A stretch of DNA of 64,000 nucleotides from contig NC_135172.1 in assembly GCF_041146795.1 (NCBI RefSeq), forward strand, positions 34,457,623 to 34,521,622, given 5' to 3'. The stretch comes from Maylandia zebra. Taxonomy: Eukaryota > Chordata > Actinopteri > Cichliformes > Cichlidae. The translations under genes were made by a program, and so were the position numbers. Shown here in pieces: positions 46,986 to 63,100 of the stretch. The number at the start of each line of letters is the position of its first letter. Positions within the stretch are counted from its first letter, which is position 1. Under the pieces are notes generated by a model. The model did not search any database, was not told the DNA's origin, and saw only the letters and a program-made list of their open reading frames with translations.

Positions 46986-47964
46986 ATGAGTTTAACCACG
47001 ACTGAAGGTTGGTATTTTTACTTTTGTGCATGCACGCATTTTCTAACATGCTTATGTAATCTGATACAGAACCCATGAGTTGTTTTGATTTTTAAAATCG
47101 ATCCCCACAGACTCCTTTTCCCCAGTGATCGGTGACTTAAGGATTGTTCTGCTGGGGAAAACTGGCTCAGGAAAGAGTGCAACAGGGAATACTATCCTGG
47201 GTTACAAAGCTTTTGACGAAGAAATATCTCCATCTTCTGTAACAAAGATGTGTAAGAAAGTGACTGGACATTTTGATGAAAGAACTGTGAATGTTGTTGA
47301 CACCCCTGGAATCTTTGACACATCAATTAAAGAAGAGGAACTGAAAAAGGAAATAGAAAAATGCATAATGCTGTCTGTCCCAGGACCCCATATGTTTCTG
47401 CTAGTGATCAGATTGGATGTGCGCTTCACAGAAGAAGAGAAGAGTTCTGTTAAATGGATCAAAGAAAACTTTGGGGATGAAGCCTCAAAGTATACAGCAG
47501 TGCTTTTCACAAGGGGTGATCAGTTCAAAGAAACATCCATTGAAAACTACTTAGAGCAAAGTCCTGATCTGAAGGAGCTCATCGCTGAGTGTAAAGCTGG
47601 GTATGTTGTATTTGACAACACATGCAAGAAAAATCGCACTCAGGTAGCTGATCTGTTTGAAAAGATAGACCAGACAGTGCAATTAAACGGGAACCATTAC
47701 ACCGGCAGCAAATACGAAGAGGCCCAGAAACAGATGAATTGGAACAAATGGTGGCGCAAATGTGGAGACACATTGAACTCTGCAGGTAATTATTTGCTTG
47801 TGGCAGGAGCGCCAGGAGCAGCAGCTGCTGCACCTGCAGTTGGTGCTGCTGTAATGGCAGAGGAAGCAGCAGTCGCATCCGTTCGGCCTCTATTAATGTT
47901 TGTAGGAGCAGGGATTGTTAAAGGCATTGGGGGCTGGATCAGACCTAAAACAGAGAACAGCTAA
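46986..47964 (+). CDS. GIMAP-family GTPase, gene 1
   Basis: AIG1/GIMAP GTP-binding protein of immune cells. Two coding exons are seen, 46986-47007 and 47111-47964, with GT-AG ends, joining in phase to 291 residues (MSLTTTEDSFSP...). Exon 2 has no ATG before the P-loop, so the ATG in the small exon is needed. An acceptor (CCCTACAG) directly precedes that exon, so a 5' UTR exon lies further upstream. The P-loop GKTGSGKS is at 23-30 and the G3 motif DTPG at 71-74. The family box SVPGPHMFLLVIRL follows, then a hydrophobic alanine-rich region and a glycine-rich hydrophobic end (about 230-280) that may contact membranes. The 3' UTR appears to end near AATAAA at 48599-48604. The gene converges on gene 2. 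Confidence 0.92.
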
Positions 47965-49825: not shown

Positions 49826-51423
49826 TTATACAGGCACGTTTGCTTTAGCCTTGCATTTTATGCCTTTCCAAATGAAAATGGCAGATAAACCGCATAAGAT
49901 TCCCAGGACAAGTGCAGGGGCGCCTAGAGCCAGGGCCACTGTGGTGTTAGCTCCCACTGCAATGACCACCCCAGCAAACACCAAGACAACAGCAGAAGCT
50001 GCGGCCACGCGTATATTCTTTCTTTTAACCTTTTTCTTCCTGATTTTCTTTTCCTCCTGCTTCTGTCTCTCTGCATCCCATATTTTCCTTTCCTCCTCTT
50101 TCTTCTGTTCCTCCTCTTGCTTCCTCCGCTCCTCCTCCTCTCTCAGCTTCCTCTGGGCTTTCTCATACATTTCATTCGTGTAGTGCTTACCGCCGTTATC
50201 CTGTACCATTTCCTTGATCATGTTGATCAGCTCTTTTACCTGTATGCGGTCATCCACGTCAGTGTTGTTGAAAGCATGATATCTGCGTCCAAATGTGATC
50301 GAGAGTCTCCGCAGCTCCTTGCACTCCTTCAGAGCATTGTCAGCTTTAGCTTGATCTTTACACGTAAACAGCATGATTGTGTACATGGAAGCATCGTCTC
50401 CAAAGTTATCTTGGATCCACTTAACAGCATTTCTTTCCTCTTCCGTGAACCTTACTCCAAGCCGGATTACCAGTAGGAAAGCATGAGGGCCAGGAACTGA
50501 CATTTTGACACACTCCTCTATTCTGACTTTTAATTCTTCCTCTGAGATGCCTGTATCAAACAGACCCGGAGTGTCAATAACCTGCACCAAGGTCCCATCC
50601 ACTTCCCCATTCTGCATCTCACAGTGTTTGGTCACAGACACAGGGCTGGGATCCTCTTTGAAGGCAATTCTTCCAAGGATAGTGTTTCCTGTTGCACTCT
50701 TCCCTGATCCAGTCTTTCCCACTAAGACTATCCTCAAACCTCCAGACAAATCCAGACCTGTGGTAGAAACAACAGACACAGAATTACTGGCATTTACAAT
50801 AAAAAACGAATCCTTTCTTTTCTGCCTTGTTAGTCTTAAGTTAGTGTGGGGTTTTTTTTGTTGTTGTTGTTTTTTAATTTAATCTCTGGACTGTCTGGAA
50901 AAAAAAAGCCTTTAGCATATTTTCCTTGAAATATACTATTCATTCATTTGTTGTTGTTTTAAAAAAATAATAATAGTAAATAAAACAACATTTATATATT
51001 GTTGTTAGTTACTGTTCTTACTGTCTTGGAGCTCCTGTGATCTTTGACCAAATAATTTCCCCTGGGATTAGTAAAGTATTCTGATTCTGATACAAAATTA
51101 CTGAAATTAGAGTAGAACAGCTACTAGTAGATTCGAGTGACTAGAGAGAAAATGAAGGAGCATACCATCAAAGTTTTTCAGACCACACCCATCAGACCGA
51201 GGTAGAGTTTTCTGCTTCTTTTCTCTGAGTTGTATTTCTGTCACAAGTTACACCATTGAGAGAAAAAAAGGTAAGATTAGTCACTGACATCTTTAAGAAG
51301 GTCTGTATCTTTTTGACTTTGCCTCTTTTGCCCTTTTCAGTGTATCAATATCACATCCTAGAGTAATTAAATAATTAGTGCATTTTTAAACTAGTTCAGA
51401 GAGATGATCTTACCTTCAGCCAT
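49826..51423 (-). CDS. GIMAP-family GTPase with C-terminal membrane anchor, gene 2
   Basis: Three coding exons: 51414-51423, 51166-51237 and 49826-50757, all with GT-AG ends, joining in phase to 337 residues (MAEEIQLREKKQKTLPRSDG...). A start inside intron 2 (MSVVSTTG) is possible in the genomic frame but sits upstream of a clear acceptor (CTACCACAG), so the spliced start is preferred. The P-loop GKTGSGKS is at 41-48, followed by [11 protein letters not shown] and [14 protein letters not shown]. After the GTPase domain comes a charged coiled-coil stretch rich in E, K and R. About 45 hydrophobic residues then follow (roughly 277-324), likely one or two membrane segments as in anchored GIMAPs, and a short basic tail. 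The GTPase should face the cytosol, unlike that predicted for genes A and B. Confidence 0.92.
51010..51092 (+). repeat. Probable retrotransposon 3' tail
   Basis: 'aatttcccctgggattagta' followed by AAAGTATTCTGATTCTGAT resembles the 3' end and tail of common fish non-LTR elements. It lies in intron 2 of GIMAP gene 2. The family is not assigned. Confidence 0.35.
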
Positions 51424-52494: not shown

Positions 52495-52640
52495 AAAAAG
52501 GTCCATTGTGCCATTTAATTGAATGTGTCCAAGTGCTCCAACTAATGTCACCAGAACATATGAGGGGCAACATGCTTCTACACCAAAAGGTCCCTGGCAA
52601 GTCTTCGCTCTTCCTCCACTGTTATCCTCTTTACTCCAAC
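52495..52640 (-). pseudogene. Relic of a GIMAP C-terminal region
   Basis: The minus strand encodes GALGHIQLNGTMDLFP before a stop, matching the end of gene B ([16 protein letters not shown]) in both peptide and DNA; the DNA similarity extends back about 140 bp (compare 57034-57150). The GTPase domain that should precede it is not present, and the sequence upstream is unrelated. This is the remains of another GIMAP copy whose main part was lost. Confidence 0.7.
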
Positions 52641-53994: not shown

Positions 53995-55452
53995 TTAGCC
54001 ATTATATATTGGCCTTTTTGTTTTGTAAAGGTGTAAGGCCCAAGTAAGCATACTTATTATGCAATTAAAGCCAAGTCCTGAAGCTACTGCCACGAGAAAA
54101 GGTGAGGTATAAAACAGCCCTGCACCCAAAAGTGCTGCAGATGTATATAATATCATTTTACACCACTCTTTTAATTTGATCCTCTCCTCTTCTTCCCTTT
54201 TTCTTTGCTTTTCCTCCCTCCTCCTCGTTTCCCTTTCTTCTTCAAGTCTCTTCTGGGCTGTCTCATACATATCATTGGTGTAGTGACTTCCTCCATTCAA
54301 TTCCACCATTTGCTCTATTTTATCTAGAAGATTTTTGACCTGTTTTCTGCTTTCTTTCTGATTATTGATGAGTGAATGGTACCTTCCTCCACACTTGTTT
54401 ATCAGTGTTCTAAGATGTATGCTTTTTTTATAATAGTCTTCCACTGATTTATCCTGCAGCAGGTCACCATGTGTAAACAGAACTATGATGTATAGGGAAG
54501 CTTCGGAACCAAAGTTTTCTTCAATCCACGTGACAGCATCCTGTTCCTCTTGTGTGAACCTTGACTTCAGGCTGATGACTAAAAGGAAAGCATGCGGTCC
54601 AGGAACTGACTGTTCAATGCACTCCTCAATTTTTGCTTTCACTTCATCTTGTGTTTTGGTTGTGCCAAACAGTCCTGGAGTGTCAATCACAACAATTTTT
54701 CTTCCACTTTTGTCTACCTCTTTTCTGAGACAGCCATCAGTAACAGACTCAGGTGAAATGTCCTCTTTGAAAGCGTTTGTATCGCCCAGAATGGTGTTTC
54801 CAGACGCACTCTTTCCTGACCCTGTTTTACCAACCAGGATGAGTCTCAGTTCTTCATGATATGCAGAGTCTGTGGAAAATTAATGATAACATTTGAATTA
54901 TGTGAAGGAGTGTGCATGAGTGACACAACTTTTGACAGTGATTCTGTGCTTGCAGTTTTTAGGTTCTAGTAACCTCTTAATGTTACTGTAGAAGTTAATA
55001 ACTGCACAAATAAGTGGCTGAAGGCACTTCACTGTATAGTCTTGAGACTTGCCATTAAAGTGAGTTTGACTGTTTACCTTAAGAAACAACATTCAACTTT
55101 ATTTGTTTTATATACATAAATATATGTTTTCAAATACAGAAACATTAAACTGACTCCAGAAAACAGATTTTATAGATGAACAAGGCAAAGTACGAAACTA
55201 GGCTATTTGCTAATAACGTGTTAAATAAAATATATGTTTATAACATGTTATAAACAAATTTTCTGCAAATGAAGTCATTTATACAGCAACATATGTGAAC
55301 ACTTGTTATCTTTATGTATTCATGACTAACCGGCTATACAAGTTCTTATTCTACTTACCTTTGTGTTGATTTTGCCAGTGAGCAGTTTGTCCACATAACG
55401 TGAGTAACACCAGCAGGATGGATCCTTGGATCCAAGGTTTTGATGCCAACAT
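53995..55452 (-). CDS. GIMAP-family GTPase with N-terminal signal peptide, gene A
   Basis: Two coding exons, 55359-55452 and 53995-54869, with consensus GT-AG ends, join in phase to 322 residues. Exon 1 encodes [20 protein letters not shown] and then [11 protein letters not shown]: a basic residue, a hydrophobic core and a small-residue cleavage region, i.e. a signal-peptide-like leader. Exon 2 has no ATG before its GTPase motifs, so this start is needed. P-loop GKTGSGKS lies at 45-52, then [11 protein letters not shown] and [14 protein letters not shown]. An E/R/K-rich coiled coil and a hydrophobic C-terminal anchor ([16 protein letters not shown]...) follow. The leader predicts entry into the ER or a signal anchor, odd for a family acting in the cytosol. 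Close tandem copy of gene B, but with a different C-terminal tail. Confidence 0.9.
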
Positions 55453-56560
55453 TTCAGTAAATGCTCAAAAACTTTACCAAGAAAAGAAAAAAAGGAAAAA
55501 CGTTAAAGGAAAGTCTTTCAAACCAGATAGCAAGTAAAAGTTTATGAACATACACTGGCGTACAATATGATCCACAGGCATAAACTGAGATTTAGAAATG
55601 TGTACAGTCATTTGTGTGTAACTTCTGAGGACTCACAAATGCGTGCACCCATCCACATACACAAATATGAAGCAATTTGACAATACGTAAAATTATTCAA
55701 CAAATGCTTCCCTCCGAACCTAAATTAATAGTGACTATTTACGCAAAATTTATTAAGGTGAGCTTCACGGATCGGATAAATGTTTGAAAAAAACAAGTAA
55801 CGCCTGCTTCGCTCACTTACAGAACTTTAAATGCGCGTGCACCAATCGCCCAATGTACAAAGCTGGCAGTCTGAACTGTTGTTCAATTGATATTCTACTA
55901 ATACTATAACTGCTATCAGTTGACAAAACATTAAACACCTTGTTCCAGATTGCGCACAGGGCACACAAGCTAATTAACTAAGTAGAGCTAAGTGATCCGG
56001 GCTAAATGCTACGCCAAGGTAAACGGTGTTACCACTAAAGACGACGTACATCTATTTCTAAGAGCTGTGCAACACAGCCAGGAGCCTTACGAACATAACA
56101 CCAGGCACTTTTAACTCACTAATGGTGTAGAGACGTTATAAAACAAGTGTTTCGGCAGGTTGCCACATACCTCTGTTAATTTGCACCACGTTTGCAAAAG
56201 TTCCTAACGAGTTCTGTCCGCACTTCACAAAAAAGCCTCCAGCTTGTTTGGCGCTGTGAAGCTTTTAATATGAAGCAGAAGCAGCAGCAGGAAGGTGATA
56301 GGTTTGTATCAGCGGTAGCTTCACCAGTTTTGAATCAACTGTTGAATTCCGTTGCAGTGCAGGAATCGTTCATCTATCAAAATATTTAAATGTTTTATTT
56401 TGAAAGTACCCGTCCAAGTGCTTCCTCTGGTGTGCAGTGAGCTGTTAGGTCAGCAGCTTCTTTCACGACACACATTAATTTCACTGAAGAACACTACTTA
56501 AACCAATGAGGAATGACTGACTGAGGCTAAGTATGAAAATGAAAATCAGCCATTATAATT
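55453..56560 (-). promoter_or_regulatory. 5' region of GIMAP gene A
   Basis: The sequence at about 56400-56560 matches the upstream regions of units B (58440-58600) and C (59560-59720). Shared words include 'caagtgcttcctctg'/'caaggactttctc'/'caagtactttctc', which look like a 5' UTR exon ending before a GTA donor, and a CCAATG box. A GAAAATGAAA (GAAANNGAAA, IRF-type core) lies at 56535-56544, only in this unit. The region between is the intron before exon 1. Confidence 0.45.
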
Positions 56561-57033
56561 TAAACATTTATTTTATTGTTGCAAAATTATACACTGAGAA
56601 ACCTTTGAATAAACAAACCCCTGCCCCTAACAGAGAAAGCATGCACATTTTCATTTTATTTTAAAATTAACAAAGTAGTAGTTCAAATAGTGATTACTGA
56701 AAACTATTTCTAAACTCACTCCTGGATCTTTTTTTTTTTTTTAATTTTCTTCCAAGTTCCTCTGTCTATATGACAGAAGATGATAGAAGTTGAGTCATAC
56801 TAAGGATCATACAAATGACTCAGTAGAGTAAAATAAATATGCTATATGAACACACTACAAAGTATTTCTTTATTAAGTAGTCAGTTTTATGTAACAAAAA
56901 ACCCTGTCAAGTGATTGGTCAGAAATCGCACCACAGTATTATATAATAAAAAGTACAACCATCACTGGATGCATGACTTATTTTTTTCTTTGCTGGAGGA
57001 GTGGTGTAGGTTTAGTGGTCCTATCTCCCACAC
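56561..57033. repeat. 3' flank of unit B, homologous to 58975-59150
   Basis: The segment 56560-56735 matches 58975-59150 ('attatacactgagaaacc' against 'attatacacagagaaact', and 'gtgattactgaaaact' in both). This marks the junctions of the tandem GIMAP duplication. AATAAA on the minus strand at 56869-56874 is a candidate polyadenylation signal for gene B. Confidence 0.6.
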
Positions 57034-58234
57034 TTAAGTAAACATTCCCATTGTGCAATTTAACTGAGAATATCCAAGTGCTCCCCCTATTCCCATGAGA
57101 ACAGATGATGAAAAGTATGCTCCTGCACCAAATAATCCCAGGGAAGTGAGACCAAGAAATTTACACCACTCTTTTAATTTGATCCTCTCCTCTTCTTCCC
57201 TTTTTCTTTGCTCTTCCTCCCTCCTCCTCTTTTCCCTTTCTTCTTCAAGTCTCTTCTGGGCTGCCTCATACATCTCATTGGTGTAGTGACTTCCTCCATT
57301 CAATTCCACCATTTCCTCTATTTTATCTAGAAGATTTTTGACCTGTTTTCTGCTTTCTTTCTGATTATTGATGAGTGAATGGTACCTTCCTCCACACTTG
57401 TTTATCAGTGTTCTAAGATGTATGCTTTCTTTATAATAGTCTTCCACTGATTTATCCTGCAGCAGGTCACCATGTGTAAACAGAACTATGGTGTATAGGG
57501 AAGCTTCGGAACCAAAGTTTTCTTGAATCCACGTGACAGCATCCTGTTCCTCTTGTGTGAACCTTGACTTCAGGCTGATGACTAAAAGGAAAGCATGGGG
57601 TCCAGGAACTGACTGTTCAATGCACTCCTCAATTTTTACTTTCACTTCATCTTGTGTTTTGTTTGTGTCAAACAGCCCTGGAGTGTCAATCACAACAATT
57701 TTTCTTCCACCTTTTTCTACCTCTTTTCTGAGACAGCCATCAGTAACAGACTCAGGTGAAATGCCCTCTTTGAAAGCGTTTGTATCCCCCAGAATGGTGT
57801 TTCCAGATGCACTCTTTCCTGATCCTGTTTTACCGACAAGGATGATTCTCAGTTCTTCATGATTTGCAGAGCCTGTGGAAAATTAATGATAACATTTGAA
57901 TTATTTGAAGGAGTGTGCATGACTAACATGACTTTTTAAAACCTTGGATGAACAAGGCAAAGTCCGACACTAGGTTATTCATTCACATGTGTTCACTAAA
58001 AATATATTTAAATAAACACAATGAAATATATTAGAAACAAATCTTCTTTAAATTAAGTCATTTATACTACAACATAGGTGAACACTTGTTATGTTTATGT
58101 ATTAATGCAAACCGGCTGTACAAGTTCTTATTCAGCTTACCTCTGTATTGATTTTGGCAGTTAGCAGTTTGTCCGCATAATGTCAGTAACACAACCAGGA
58201 TGCATCCTTGGATCCAAGCTTTTGCTGCCAACAT
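57034..58234 (-). CDS. GIMAP-family GTPase with N-terminal signal peptide, gene B
   Basis: Coding exons 58141-58234 and 57034-57872 join in phase to 310 residues. Exon 1 gives [20 protein letters not shown] and then [11 protein letters not shown], again a signal-peptide-like leader, parallel to gene A with several replacements that keep its character. The GTPase exon starts [13 protein letters not shown], with P-loop GKTGSGKS at 45-52, then [11 protein letters not shown] and [14 protein letters not shown], and ends its charged helix with RIKLKEWCK. Up to this point it is nearly identical to gene A. The C-terminal tail is unrelated in sequence ([20 protein letters not shown], ending TMGMFT), hydrophobic, and resembles the relic at 52495-52640. 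An intact frame with conserved splice sites supports a functional gene. Confidence 0.9.
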
Positions 58235-58620
58235 TTTAGTAAACTAGCAAAAAACTTTACATAGAAACAAAAAAAGGAAAAGCATTAAAGGAAAGTCTTT
58301 CTAATCAGATCGCAAGTAAATATTGAACTACACTGAAAATATATGTTGAATAAATCATGCCCCAAGTTGGGGGCATGTAGACTTTTTATAGAAACTCTAT
58401 CAATAAAATCCGTCTTCTATTGAAAGATTTAAAGGTTCTATTTTGAACGTACCTGTGCAAGGACTTTCTCTTGTGTACAGTAAACAGCTGGGTCACTAGA
58501 ATCTTTCAAAGCAGACAGGACACGCCCACTTTGCATTTCCAAGGAAAACAATACTTAAACCAATGCGGAATGGTCGGCTGAACAGCACCAGCCAGTGATG
58601 ACAAGAGGAATAGCATCATG
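58235..58620 (-). promoter_or_regulatory. 5' region of GIMAP gene B
   Basis: Contains the candidate 5' UTR exon end at 58452-58475 (minus strand GAAAGTCCTTGCACAG, then GTACG) and a CCAATG box at 58559-58564, both shared with units A and C. No exact GAAANNGAAA core was found here. Confidence 0.4.
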
Positions 58621-58974: not shown

Positions 58975-59720
58975 ACAATGATTTTATTTTTTGCACAATT
59001 ATACACAGAGAAACTGTTGAATCAAATAAACCCCTGCACCAACAGAGAAAACACCCGCATTTTTATTTTATTTGAATATTAACACACTAGTAATTCAAGT
59101 AGTGATTACTGAAAACTTTTTCTTAATTTATTCTTAGGTCTTTTTTGAATGTTTAAACTTGTTTCAACCTTAAGAAACAACGCTCAACTTTTTTTTTTTG
59201 AAAACTAGGTCACATTAAAATCCAACACCAGTTCCTTGAATTCAGTGAAGTCATGCTACAAACATGGTTCTATAACTACAGGAAAAAAGTTTAAAATTAC
59301 ATACAAGTATGATTTCAAATTCAGAACCATTAGCCTGACTCGGCTGTCGGAATCTGTCGGAAAACAGATTTGCTGGATGAACGAGGAAAAGTACAACACT
59401 AAGCTATTTTTAATGTCTTTTCATGTTCAAGTATTCATGACAAACCAGTTGCACAAGTTTCTGTGCCACTTACCTTTGTATTTATTTTGACAGTGAGCAG
59501 TGTGTCCACAGAGTGTAAGTAGGACAAGTAAAATACATTTTCTGGTAAAATATTTAACCTGTGCAAGTACTTTCTCGGCCATGCAATAAGTTGTTAGGTC
59601 AACAGATTCTTTTCTAAAAGGCAGAACACATCCACTGGTACACTGAAAACAATAACCAATGAGAAATCACCAGCTGAGCAGCCTAAGTAATGAAGAAGCC
59701 AGCCAGTGATGAGAATAATA
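58975..59720 (-). pseudogene. Third tandem GIMAP unit (C): promoter and first exon kept, GTPase exon lost
   Basis: From right to left it has the shared upstream region with a CCAATG box (59656-59661), then a first exon, intron sequence similar to that of unit A (59165-59465), then directly the 3' flank homologous to 56560-56735. The GTPase exon is absent. In the first exon the 5' UTR part and the leader part are fused without the intron seen in A and B. This creates an open stretch 59474-59582: [20 protein letters not shown], then [16 protein letters not shown], ending in the same phase and with an intact GTAAG donor. It may be a dead relic, or it may splice to the GTPase exon of gene B as an alternative first exon. 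Confidence 0.75.
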
Positions 59721-60181: not shown

Positions 60182-63100
60182 TCAAACAAAGAAAGAGGTT
60201 GGCTGTGGGTGAGTGCTTGTACTGTGCTCCTGGGCCATTTTATTAACACTTGCCCCATGTGGCCAAAAGAGACTGCTCGTCAGTAACGGTGGGGATACTG
60301 ACAGGAAATGAAAATGATCCAACGGGATGGTCCGGACTGGCCTAATTTGAGAAACATGAAACACGTTGTGTACCTTCATGTTGCATGGGTGGGCCAGCCG
60401 GACAGTCACTGGATTCAGGACTCAGTCCGCAGAGTGATGTTCCTAGAGGAAAAGCCATAACTGCTGGCCCACCCGATAGGCCGGTGTAGGGACACGGCGG
60501 CGGTCAGCCAGTCTCTTGTTTTGTGCGCTCGTACGCAGTAGGGCCGCTCGAGTCGCCCGCCAGATCCGTCGACAGCGCCTCATGTGATGTTGCACGGAAG
60601 GTACGGCCACCTCTCCCTCCATGATGGAGAGGAGTGGGGGTTGATACCCCAGGGATGCTTCGAAGAGAGAGACACCCGTAGCGGCCGACGTGCTAGAGTT
60701 ATGGGCGTATTCGGCCCACGCCAACTGCTCACTCCATGACGACTGGTTGGAGGAAACGACGCAGCGCAGCATGGCCTCCAGCTCCTGGTTCGCTCGCTCA
60801 GTCTGGCCATTAGTCTGCAGGTGGAAACCAGAAGACAGGCTGACCTGGTCAAGAGCTGGGCAGTCTCTAGAGCGGTGGAGAGTTTGGTAAGGGCAAAAAA
60901 TTGGGCAGCCTTAGAAAAACGGTCAATGATGGTGAGTATAACAGTTTTACCAGAGGACGGAGGGAGGCCAGTGATGAAGTCCAGAGCGACGTGCGACCAC
61001 GGCCGGCTGGGGACAGGCAGTGGTCTGAGGAGTCCCGATGGAGGGGAGTTGGACGTCTTATTTCGGGCGCACACAGGACATGTGGCCACATACTCCCGGA
61101 CGTCCTGAGAGAGAGACGGCCACCAAAACAGTCTTTGTAAAAGGGTGACAGTTCGGTTCCTGCCCGGATGGCAGGTAAACCGTGCGGTGTGTGCCCAGTG
61201 GATGACCTTACCCCTGACCGCTGAGGGAACATACAATCTACCTGCTGGACCGGTGCCCTTTCTATCTCCCAGGTGAGGGTCCCCACAATGCATGAGGCCA
61301 GCAGAATGGGCCTCTCCTTCTCCTCAGGGTCCGTGTCTGGCGCGAACTGGCGTGACAAGGAGTCTGGTTTCGTATTCCGGGACCCGGGCCTGTAGGTAAT
61401 GGTTAGGTTAAACCGTGCAAAAAACAATGCCCACCTGGCCTGTCGGGCGTTCAGGCGCTTAGGCGCTTGTAGGTAGGCGAGGTTCTTGTGGTCCGTCCAC
61501 ACGATAACAGGATGTTCGCTCCCCTCCAACCAGTGCCGCCACTCCTCCAGCGCCAACTTGATGGCAAGAAGCTCCCGGTCGCTCATGTCATAAGTCCTTT
61601 CAGCCTGAGTGAGCCGACGGGAGGAAAAGGCACAGGGGTGTAATTTACCTTCCTTGCGCTGCGAGAGAACAGCCCCAACTCCCGAATCAGAAGCGTCCAC
61701 TTCCACCACGAACGGCAGGGTGAGGTCAGCCTGGGCCAGGATGGGGGCCGAGGCAAACAGGCTCTTGAGACGGTCGAATGCTTGCTGAGCTGCTGGAGAC
61801 CACAGGTACGGCTGTTTGGGCGATGTGAGTTGTGTGAGAGGCAATGCTACCTTACTGAAGTCCCGGATGAAACGTCTGTAGAAGTTGCTGAATCCCAGAA
61901 AACTTTGCAGTCGGAACTCCTAGGCCCCCTACTGACCCTCGCCCATCTCCAGTCCGCCTGCCAAACTCCCGCATATGGTCGTCTAGACTGATACACATGT
62001 TAACCAGGGCACTTAACGATTTAGGAAGCTCTTTAGTGGCCAACTCACGTTTGACATTCTCATTTAAGCTGTTTAGGAATGATCCTCAGAGCGCCTTTTC
62101 CTCCCAGCCCGTCTCCTCGGCCAAGATCCAAAAGTCCACGGAGAAGTCTGCCACGCTCCGCAGGCCCTGCTTTAAAGTAAACATGCGATGAGTAGCACTG
62201 TCAGGGTTAGATCCTTTGTCAAACACACACCGAAATTTGTTCAAAAAAATCACTATATGAGATGGAGGGTTGGGCGCTCGGGACTGCTTGAGCCCAGAGC
62301 AGTGCTCGTCAGGTCATGAGCTCCACCATGAGGGTGATCTTGGCAATATCAGAGGCATAAGCTCGAGTCTGCTGCCTAAAAATCAGAGAGCATTGAGTCA
62401 AAAATCCCCGGCTTTTGTCCAAATCTCCACTGAATTTTTCAGGTACAGGTAACGTGTGTTCTCGCTGTGGCGGAGGTGGAGATGGAGGAAGGGGACAGGC
62501 CGCTGCTACATTTAGAAGCTCTACTGGTGGTTGTGGTTGTGTAGGGGGCTCTGGTGGTTGAACGAGTGCTCTAGGTGTAGCAAGCAACATACCTTTCAGT
62601 TCAGATACCACCTGTAGTAGCGCGGACTGCTCCTCGGCCACATGCTGCAGCATCTTTTCATGCCGCTCCAACCGTTCAGCTTGAAGCGCGAGCTCGGGAG
62701 TCAACGGGAGTTGAATCCGCTGAGTCCATTGCTGGCTGGATTGTTCTGTCACGGGTAATGGGAAAATACGGACTCAGTTGCGGAGCTCTGGATGGGAAGT
62801 ACACAGTGCGTTTATTTACAGTGCCCAAAAACAGTCTCAAAACACAAAGTGAAGTGCAAAGTCCAACAGTGATCTTCTCCAAACTCCCAGTGGTGCGCAG
62901 GTGAGTTTCCAAAGTGATTATCCGAGTGTGTGTTCTCCTCCAATAGCTTAATCCCGCGGGCTCCTTCTCTCCAACCTCCAGCTCCGTATCACTTCCTCCT
63001 ACAAACGAGCGAAAACAACAGGTGAGAAGGCTAGCCGGCTAAAGCTAAGTTGCAAGTCACAAAACACTCTTTACTACCGAGCTTCAAGTACAATCCAGCA

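Follow-up and report, generated by a model that had tools for sequence, protein, structure and literature searches.

GIMAP GTPase genes of a cichlid fish that begin with a putative signal-peptide exon

The window analyzed here, a 64,000-nucleotide stretch of the Maylandia zebra genome (contig 6, positions 34457623-34521622; 962-Mb genome), contains four genes with an AIG1 domain (PF04548), the domain of the GIMAP GTPases: gene D on the forward strand and genes E, A, and B on the reverse strand. Our subject is A and B, in which the exon encoding the GTPase domain is preceded by a short start exon, termed the leader exon, that encodes a hydrophobic peptide. Their exons are listed below by position in the window; a slash marks the splice point, and donor scores from a splice matrix are given in bits.

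55359-55452, reverse strand: leader exon of gene A, 94 nucleotides, phase-1 donor AAAG/GTAAGT (8.5 bits)
53995-54869, reverse strand: GTPase (AIG1) exon of gene A with a hydrophobic C-terminal tail (PF04548, 1.9e-62)
58141-58234, reverse strand: leader exon of gene B, 94 nucleotides, phase-1 donor AGAG/GTAAGC (6.3 bits)
57034-57872, reverse strand: GTPase (AIG1) exon of gene B (PF04548, 5.5e-64)

These coordinates are exactly those proposed in a first-pass annotation of the window, and both genes keep the leader, the GTAAG donor, and phase 1, as it had described. The leader exon opens with an ATG in both genes and joins the GTPase exon in frame, from leader A to position 54869 for a product of 322 residues and from leader B to position 57872 for one of 310 residues. 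The GTPase exons, in turn, do lack a start codon ahead of the P-loop: in A and B alike, the reading frame meets a stop codon starting 13 nucleotides 5′ of the exon with no ATG in between, and the earliest ATG within the exon lies 187 codons in. A GTPase exon with its own start was rejected on these grounds. Upstream, we scanned for single exons running from an ATG to a phase-1 donor of at least 1.5 bits, a threshold set to recover the weak 1.9-bit donor of gene D; the scan thus concerned single-exon starts, those of two or more exons (as in gene E) lying outside it. For gene A (scanned to 57033), the leader alone was found, in agreement with the earlier claim of a sole start exon of matching phase, but for gene B (scanned to 60000) that claim needs qualifying, since a third leader copy that the annotation had not listed, C (59474-59582, reverse strand, phase-1 donor AAAG/GTAAGT), fits as well. 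In 400 first-order random sequences modeled on the region upstream of A, 2.5% contained a start exon of this kind that was 60 nucleotides or longer and whose donor scored 6 bits or more, and in 0.25% (1/400) such an exon was hydrophobic. This random-sequence scan, together with the codon tests and neutral simulations given below, led us to reject the leader as a chance open reading frame (ORF). In the GTPase exon together with its 5′ flank (53995-54933 and 57034-57936), A and B agree at 96% across 777 bp, compared with about 81% around the leader, a pattern as expected from gene conversion confined to the GTPase exon.

The two tandem genes described at first belong to a clade in which five full-length GTPase exons were found, on three contigs (A, B, F, G, and H), and the leader precedes all five full-length members found. 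A further member and a further leader lie upstream of C, in a neighboring segment (locus L031):

L031:5431-5338: leader exon of gene F, with its GTPase exon from 4889 (327 residues), about 10 kb upstream of the leader of B
L031:6688-6596: leader C2, a C-type leader without a GTPase exon, upstream of C

Gene G (contig 4) carries the leader MATVISFIVVLSLTLSRHVALCQHKNDK and a GTPase domain 69% identical to that of B, and gene H (contig 3) has a domain 71% identical to that of B and a leader followed by AT rather than by a GT donor. A genome-wide search with the B exon gave 143 matches (376 candidates, 139 of them scored), in which B, A, F, H, and G ranked on top with at least 69% identity, followed by a gap and then gene E at 59%. 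When 37 AIG1 domains (the best 30 of 151 family matches plus those of A, B, and D-H) were placed in a midpoint-rooted tree, the five leader-bearing members formed one group with a support of 100/99, E and then D being nearest to it. Searched as DNA with the leader region of B, the genome yielded three places, namely B, F, and A. The intervals from C to gene B and from C2 to F gave no GTPase exon, and C and C2 could therefore serve solely as alternative leaders for B and F. Relative to C2, exon 1 (see below) and leader of C are fused through a deletion, and the C2-F and C-B pairs look like copies of one unit.

We further surveyed start exons at 40 fetched AIG1 loci, including G and H, with about 18 further AIG1 loci lying outside the survey. 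The scan retained donors scoring 4 bits or more and peptides no longer than 120 residues, and a peptide was called hydrophobic only from 18 residues upward; weak donors of the type of gene D escape these limits. A P-loop-like motif stood at the expected place in 39 of the 40 loci (the exception being L070; at L057, the motif lies just past the P-loop), and among 39 AIG1 exons checked at their 5′ side, only those of G and H matched the leader clade best. Two loci passed the survey, L061 (gene G) and L066, of which only G was convincing; the hydrophobic start exon of L066 was rejected, as its peptide resembles, by eye, part of a reverse transcriptase. In L046, a hydrophobic candidate of 12 residues, located 3.2 kb upstream, fell below the length limit. 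The leader of H (L071) was missed by the donor scan because no GT follows it, and it was recovered by tblastn.

Shorter pieces related to the clade are scattered through the genome. The listed short matches number 14, on 10 contigs (1, 4, 6, 9, 11, 12, 17, 20, 21, and 22), are 74-77% identical to the C-terminal third of B, and carry internal stops in three cases. Repeat copies on contigs 1 and 17 (L079 and L080), which span 613 and 460 bp and match each other at about 96%, combine a leader of the H type with a further, incomplete leader and a GTPase exon that has suffered an internal deletion, and a stop lies within the leader of the contig-1 copy; this leader-GIMAP fragment looks like part of a dispersed repeat. 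The surroundings of gene G (L061, contig 4) have a GC content of about 0.51 versus 0.39 in the window, and a one-exon immunoglobulin V-set ORF and a long tandem repeat encoding RPGYTFQPTWLHFPADLATL-like units lie beside the gene; this segment is possibly mobile or viral. Viral contigs were scanned with B, with an alignment of four genes, and with 100 residues of G, and no relatives came up.

The leader codons look selected as protein. When C was compared with A or B over the final 22 codons, the synonymous difference proportion (pS) was 0.67 and the nonsynonymous one (pN) 0.16 in the coding frame (Fisher p=0.0003), and the other two frames displayed no bias (p at least 0.25). Over 31 codons, six of ten leader pairs reached p<0.05, namely F-C2 (pS 0.53, pN 0.15, p=0.001), F-H (pS 0.40, pN 0.13, p=0.019), B-C2 (0.0043), A-C2 (0.018), C2-H (0.035), and B-H (0.043), p-values that are not independent since the pairs have a common history. 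The GTPase exons of F and H gave 0.46 and 0.14, and the near-equal values point to a similar constraint on leader and domain. Among 20,000 neutral simulations, amino-acid identity and hydrophobic core were both kept to the observed degree in 0.24% of runs for F-H and in 0.005% for F-C2, for which identity alone was attained in 0.1%. Several comparisons weigh against such selection: four of the ten pairs (A-B, A-F, A-H, and B-F) displayed no significant constraint, identity alone was attained in 8.9% of neutral runs for F-H and in 57% for A-B, the A-B differences (12/94 in the leader versus 58/284 in the flanks, p=0.06) are marginal, and C is as similar to A or B in its leader (49/67 identical) as in the intron (42/58 for A or 42/57 for B). 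The selection signal of the leader is the placement of changes, not their number.

These comparisons bear on the possibility that the genes are decaying pseudogenes, with leaders left over from an old fusion. Such decay would accommodate C and C2, which have no GTPase exon, the GT donor lost in H, and the 14 listed dispersed partial copies, both of the copies that were read being internally deleted. We consider it highly improbable, given that A, B, F, and G have open frames, GT donors, and undamaged GTPase motifs, and that in F-H and F-C2 the changes fall relatively more often on synonymous sites.

We then compared the leader with cleavable signal peptides and with signal anchors. Cleavage was scored with a von Heijne matrix, and the best scores were 6.4 for A, 7.5 for B, 8.8 for C, 8.9 for F, 6.5 for H, 6.7 for G, and 9.3 for C2, versus -0.2 and -1.8 for the controls D and E; 46 of 2000 shuffles of the first 40 residues of A equaled or beat its score. 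The first segment of a claudin-like ORF (40569-39895, by eye) scores 7.2 and also passes, so the matrix cannot separate a signal peptide from an anchor. More telling features are the apolar core, which spans 9-10 residues in A, B, and C, and the motif A-x-C/Q (the slash marking the predicted cut), present in seven of nine leaders (B, C, F, C2, G, H, and the contig-17 repeat copy), a count without the incomplete second leader that each repeat copy carries. In G, this site ranks second, at 6.1 after 6.7. A basic residue stands ahead of the core in A, B, C, F, and H. The phase-1 intron position lies five codons past the best predicted site in B, F, C, C2, and H, eight in A, and 12 or six in G; a published analysis reports an excess of phase-1 introns near the sites where signal peptides are cleaved (PMC1626468). 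Taken together, the short apolar core, the presence of A-x-C/Q in most copies, and the phase-1 intron near the predicted site make the leader look more like a cleavable signal peptide than like a signal anchor. Against this stand gene A, which has no A-x-C site (a tryptophan occupies position -1), the contig-1 repeat copy, which also lacks it, G and C2, which have no basic residue ahead of the core, and H, with no GT after its leader. The leader stays hydrophobic in the diverged paralogues G and H on two other contigs, so that its proposed conservation as a hydrophobic peptide holds among paralogues of this one genome. The source of the leader was also sought: a PDB search with the B leader and a Pfam search with three leaders gave no match.

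Membrane propensity was assessed from the best 19-residue windows on the Hessa scale. The leaders gave 1.8 to 6.2, as compared with -3.0 to 0.35 for four claudin-like segments, and the C-terminal tails gave 1.6 in A and 3.8 in B. This bears on a second explanation, in which the leader reaches the endoplasmic reticulum (ER) uncut or inverted, as a signal anchor or reverse signal anchor, and the GTPase domain would stay cytosolic, as is usual for the family, in a protein tethered to the ER or to vesicles and held at both ends. The distance from the claudin-like values, the 9-10-residue core, the retention of A-x-C/Q in seven of nine leaders, and the positive charge on the N-terminal side of the leader in A, B, F, and H, which favors translocation of the C-terminal part, speak against it. 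Conversely, the leaders of B (2.1), F (1.9), and C2 (1.8) are about as membrane-like as the tail of A, gene A lacks the A-x-C site, and mammalian GIMAP1/3/5 are described as membrane-anchored (PMC8201404).

The GTPase domain itself carries further evidence on both sides. With PF04548 scores of 210.8 (A) and 215.8 bits (B) against a cut-off of 27, the GTPase fold is intact, and the best PDB matches of B by sequence were human GIMAP7 (7e-45) and GIMAP2. An AlphaFold2 model of the B GTPase exon, modest in quality (mean predicted local distance difference test of 62.9, four-row alignment), likewise found human GIMAP7 and GIMAP2 as its best Foldseek matches (2.3e-17). The motifs that we take to be G1 (GKTG[SL]GKS) and G3 (DTPGLF) are present in all five leader-clade members, and the presumed G4 region reads FTHGD in all five, versus FTRGD in D and FTCKD in E, with the aspartate kept; FTHGD is a change that the clade shares at its guanine-recognition motif. 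Two domain cysteines are invariant, D and E included, and H carries extra cysteines of its own. As a rule, K/R-rich segments prefer the cytosolic side of a membrane (the positive-inside rule). Placement of the domain in the lumen is opposed by the intact G1, G3, and G4 aspartate, which suit the nucleotide-rich cytosol better, by the purifying selection on the domain, which fits a cytosolic one, and by the 11 K+R among the 25 residues ahead of the tail in A and B alike. Nor did A, B, F, G, and H display lumenal adaptation in the form of sequons or paired cysteines; sequons number none in A, two in B, and one each in F, G, and H, without a common gain. The conserved nucleotide motifs and the basic helix are at the same time arguments for an anchored protein with a cytosolic GTPase domain, which we nevertheless regard as unlikely.

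Upstream of the leaders, homologues of a further exon, exon 1, were identified:

56410-56463, reverse strand: exon-1 homologue upstream of A, probable 5′ untranslated region (UTR) or upstream ORF (uORF)
58453-58506, reverse strand: exon-1 homologue upstream of B, probable 5′ UTR or uORF
59559-59612, reverse strand: exon-1 homologue of C, continuing into the C leader

As read by eye, and assuming the acceptor AG read by eye ahead of the leader, the homologues of A and B end in phase 0 and would meet a stop inside the leader exon, which points to 5′ UTR or uORFs; exon 1 as an alternative cytosolic start was rejected for the same reason. In A, about 850 nucleotides between exon 1 and the leader (window 55560-56400) have no match in B or C, and this insertion could house a second promoter or an untranslated exon. 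Positions 60440-62770, upstream of C, hold pol fragments resembling those of long-terminal-repeat retrotransposons (translated ORFs, by eye), and the stretch directly upstream of C2 resembles sequence near them. A relic of a GIMAP C-terminal tail lies at 52495-52602 on the reverse strand (50% identity to the B tail over 36 residues, E 0.003).

The upstream region also bears on a third explanation, in which most of the protein comes from other transcripts, which begin at a remote first exon or with a cytosolic start spread over several exons, and the leader form is minor or tissue-specific. A two-exon cytosolic start does exist in gene E, a type outside the A/B scan, the ATGs in the exon-1 homologues would open uORFs before the leader ATG, and the insertion in A could hold another promoter. 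Set against these points, the scan down to 1.5-bit donors added no single phase-1 start exon for A and, for B, nothing beyond the C leader, the constraint on the F-H leader is close to that of the GTPase exon, and a transcript entering at the leader acceptor meets a leader-frame stop 15 (A) or 12 nucleotides (B) before the leader ATG, as read by eye. We consider predominance of such transcripts quite improbable.

The neighboring genes D and E provide a comparison within the cluster:

46986-47007, forward strand: start exon of gene D (MSLTTTE), short and polar, with a phase-1 donor to the GTPase exon at 47111-47964
51414-51423, reverse strand: first coding exon of gene E (MAE), followed by exon 51237-51166 and the GTPase exon from 50757, all in phase 1

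The exon model of E was read by eye, and its start peptide, MAEEIQLREKKQKTLPRSDGCGLKNFD, is short and polar like that of D. Both genes, with their cytosolic start exons, enter the GTPase exon in phase 1 at the place corresponding to that of A and B, so that a phase-1 boundary ahead of the GTPase exon is usual in the cluster. What sets A and B apart is the peptide that their start exon encodes, not the boundary.

Since both types of start exon occupy the same phase-1 boundary in neighboring genes of one cluster, we propose that, on one stem branch of a GIMAP subfamily, a signal-peptide exon replaced the short cytosolic start exon; the direction of this replacement, and exon shuffling as its mechanism, would fit the arrangement. 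The transcript, judging from splice sites, phase, and conservation, would begin with a 5′ UTR exon and run through the leader exon into the one exon that encodes the GTPase. The leader would direct the nascent chain to the ER, signal peptidase is predicted to cut at A-x-C/Q in most copies, and the GIMAP domain and tail would enter the ER lumen or the secretory pathway, where A would be tethered by its hydrophobic tail, and where B and F would probably be weakly held or soluble. The lumenal role, the least certain step, might be that of a nucleotide-dependent assembling scaffold, as for cytosolic GIMAPs. The sequence evidence suggests that proteins of the leader clade are sent into the secretory pathway. 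The conserved nucleotide motifs, the missing sequon gain, and the K/R-rich helix require the steps to be graded separately: the leader is very likely translated and likely used for ER targeting, and the chances of the GTPase domain residing in the lumen are about even. The original proposal of a signal peptide or an anchor therefore stands as to a leader that looks translated, selected, and more like a signal peptide, but the placement of the GTPase remains balanced. We hold the full explanation, with leader-clade GIMAPs targeted to the ER by a signal-peptide exon and their domain lumenal or secretory, to be somewhat more probable than its negation. A wider claim, that a lumenal or secreted GIMAP class arose in a vertebrate lineage via a single exon swap, spread to three contigs and a dispersed repeat, and acts beyond the membrane, where a plentiful supply of guanosine triphosphate (GTP) is not known, is tentative and falls slightly short of an even chance.

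GIMAP function is generally taken as cytosolic scaffolding on organelle membranes. If our explanation is true, an immune GTPase domain has been moved across a membrane in fish with its nucleotide motifs still under selection. The cluster, with its cytosolic neighbors as controls, would then offer a direct test of lumenal GTP binding and hydrolysis versus some other reason for keeping the motifs.

Within the open-licence literature, and in the parts of the sources available, no description of a signal peptide on a vertebrate GIMAP was found, subscription papers and protein databases lying outside this scope; the leader may therefore already be carried, unremarked, by automatic public gene models. 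Literature on GIMAP with herpesvirus and teleost likewise yielded nothing on leader GIMAPs, and the term signal peptide is absent from the available parts of two GIMAP reviews (PMC8201404, PMC3100574). Mammalian GIMAP1, GIMAP3, and GIMAP5 resemble A and B in their AIG1 domain, charged helical segment, C-terminal hydrophobic tail, and clustered genes (PMC8201404, PMC3100574), and A and B differ from them by the N-terminal leader encoded in the start exon. In Entamoeba, a distant lineage, six AIG1 proteins are counted among the integral membrane components, and a leader exon is not described in the part of that report available (PMC6917348). The AIG/GIMAP genes of the snail Biomphalaria glabrata are, like the leader clade, expanded in tandem and varied in membrane topology, and their authors allow for the AIG1 domain on either membrane side; none of the AIG genes is reported to encode a signal peptide (PMC7053062). 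Genes D and E share with the leader clade the cluster and the phase-1 boundary and are its nearest relatives among the 37 domains, but have polar start peptides.

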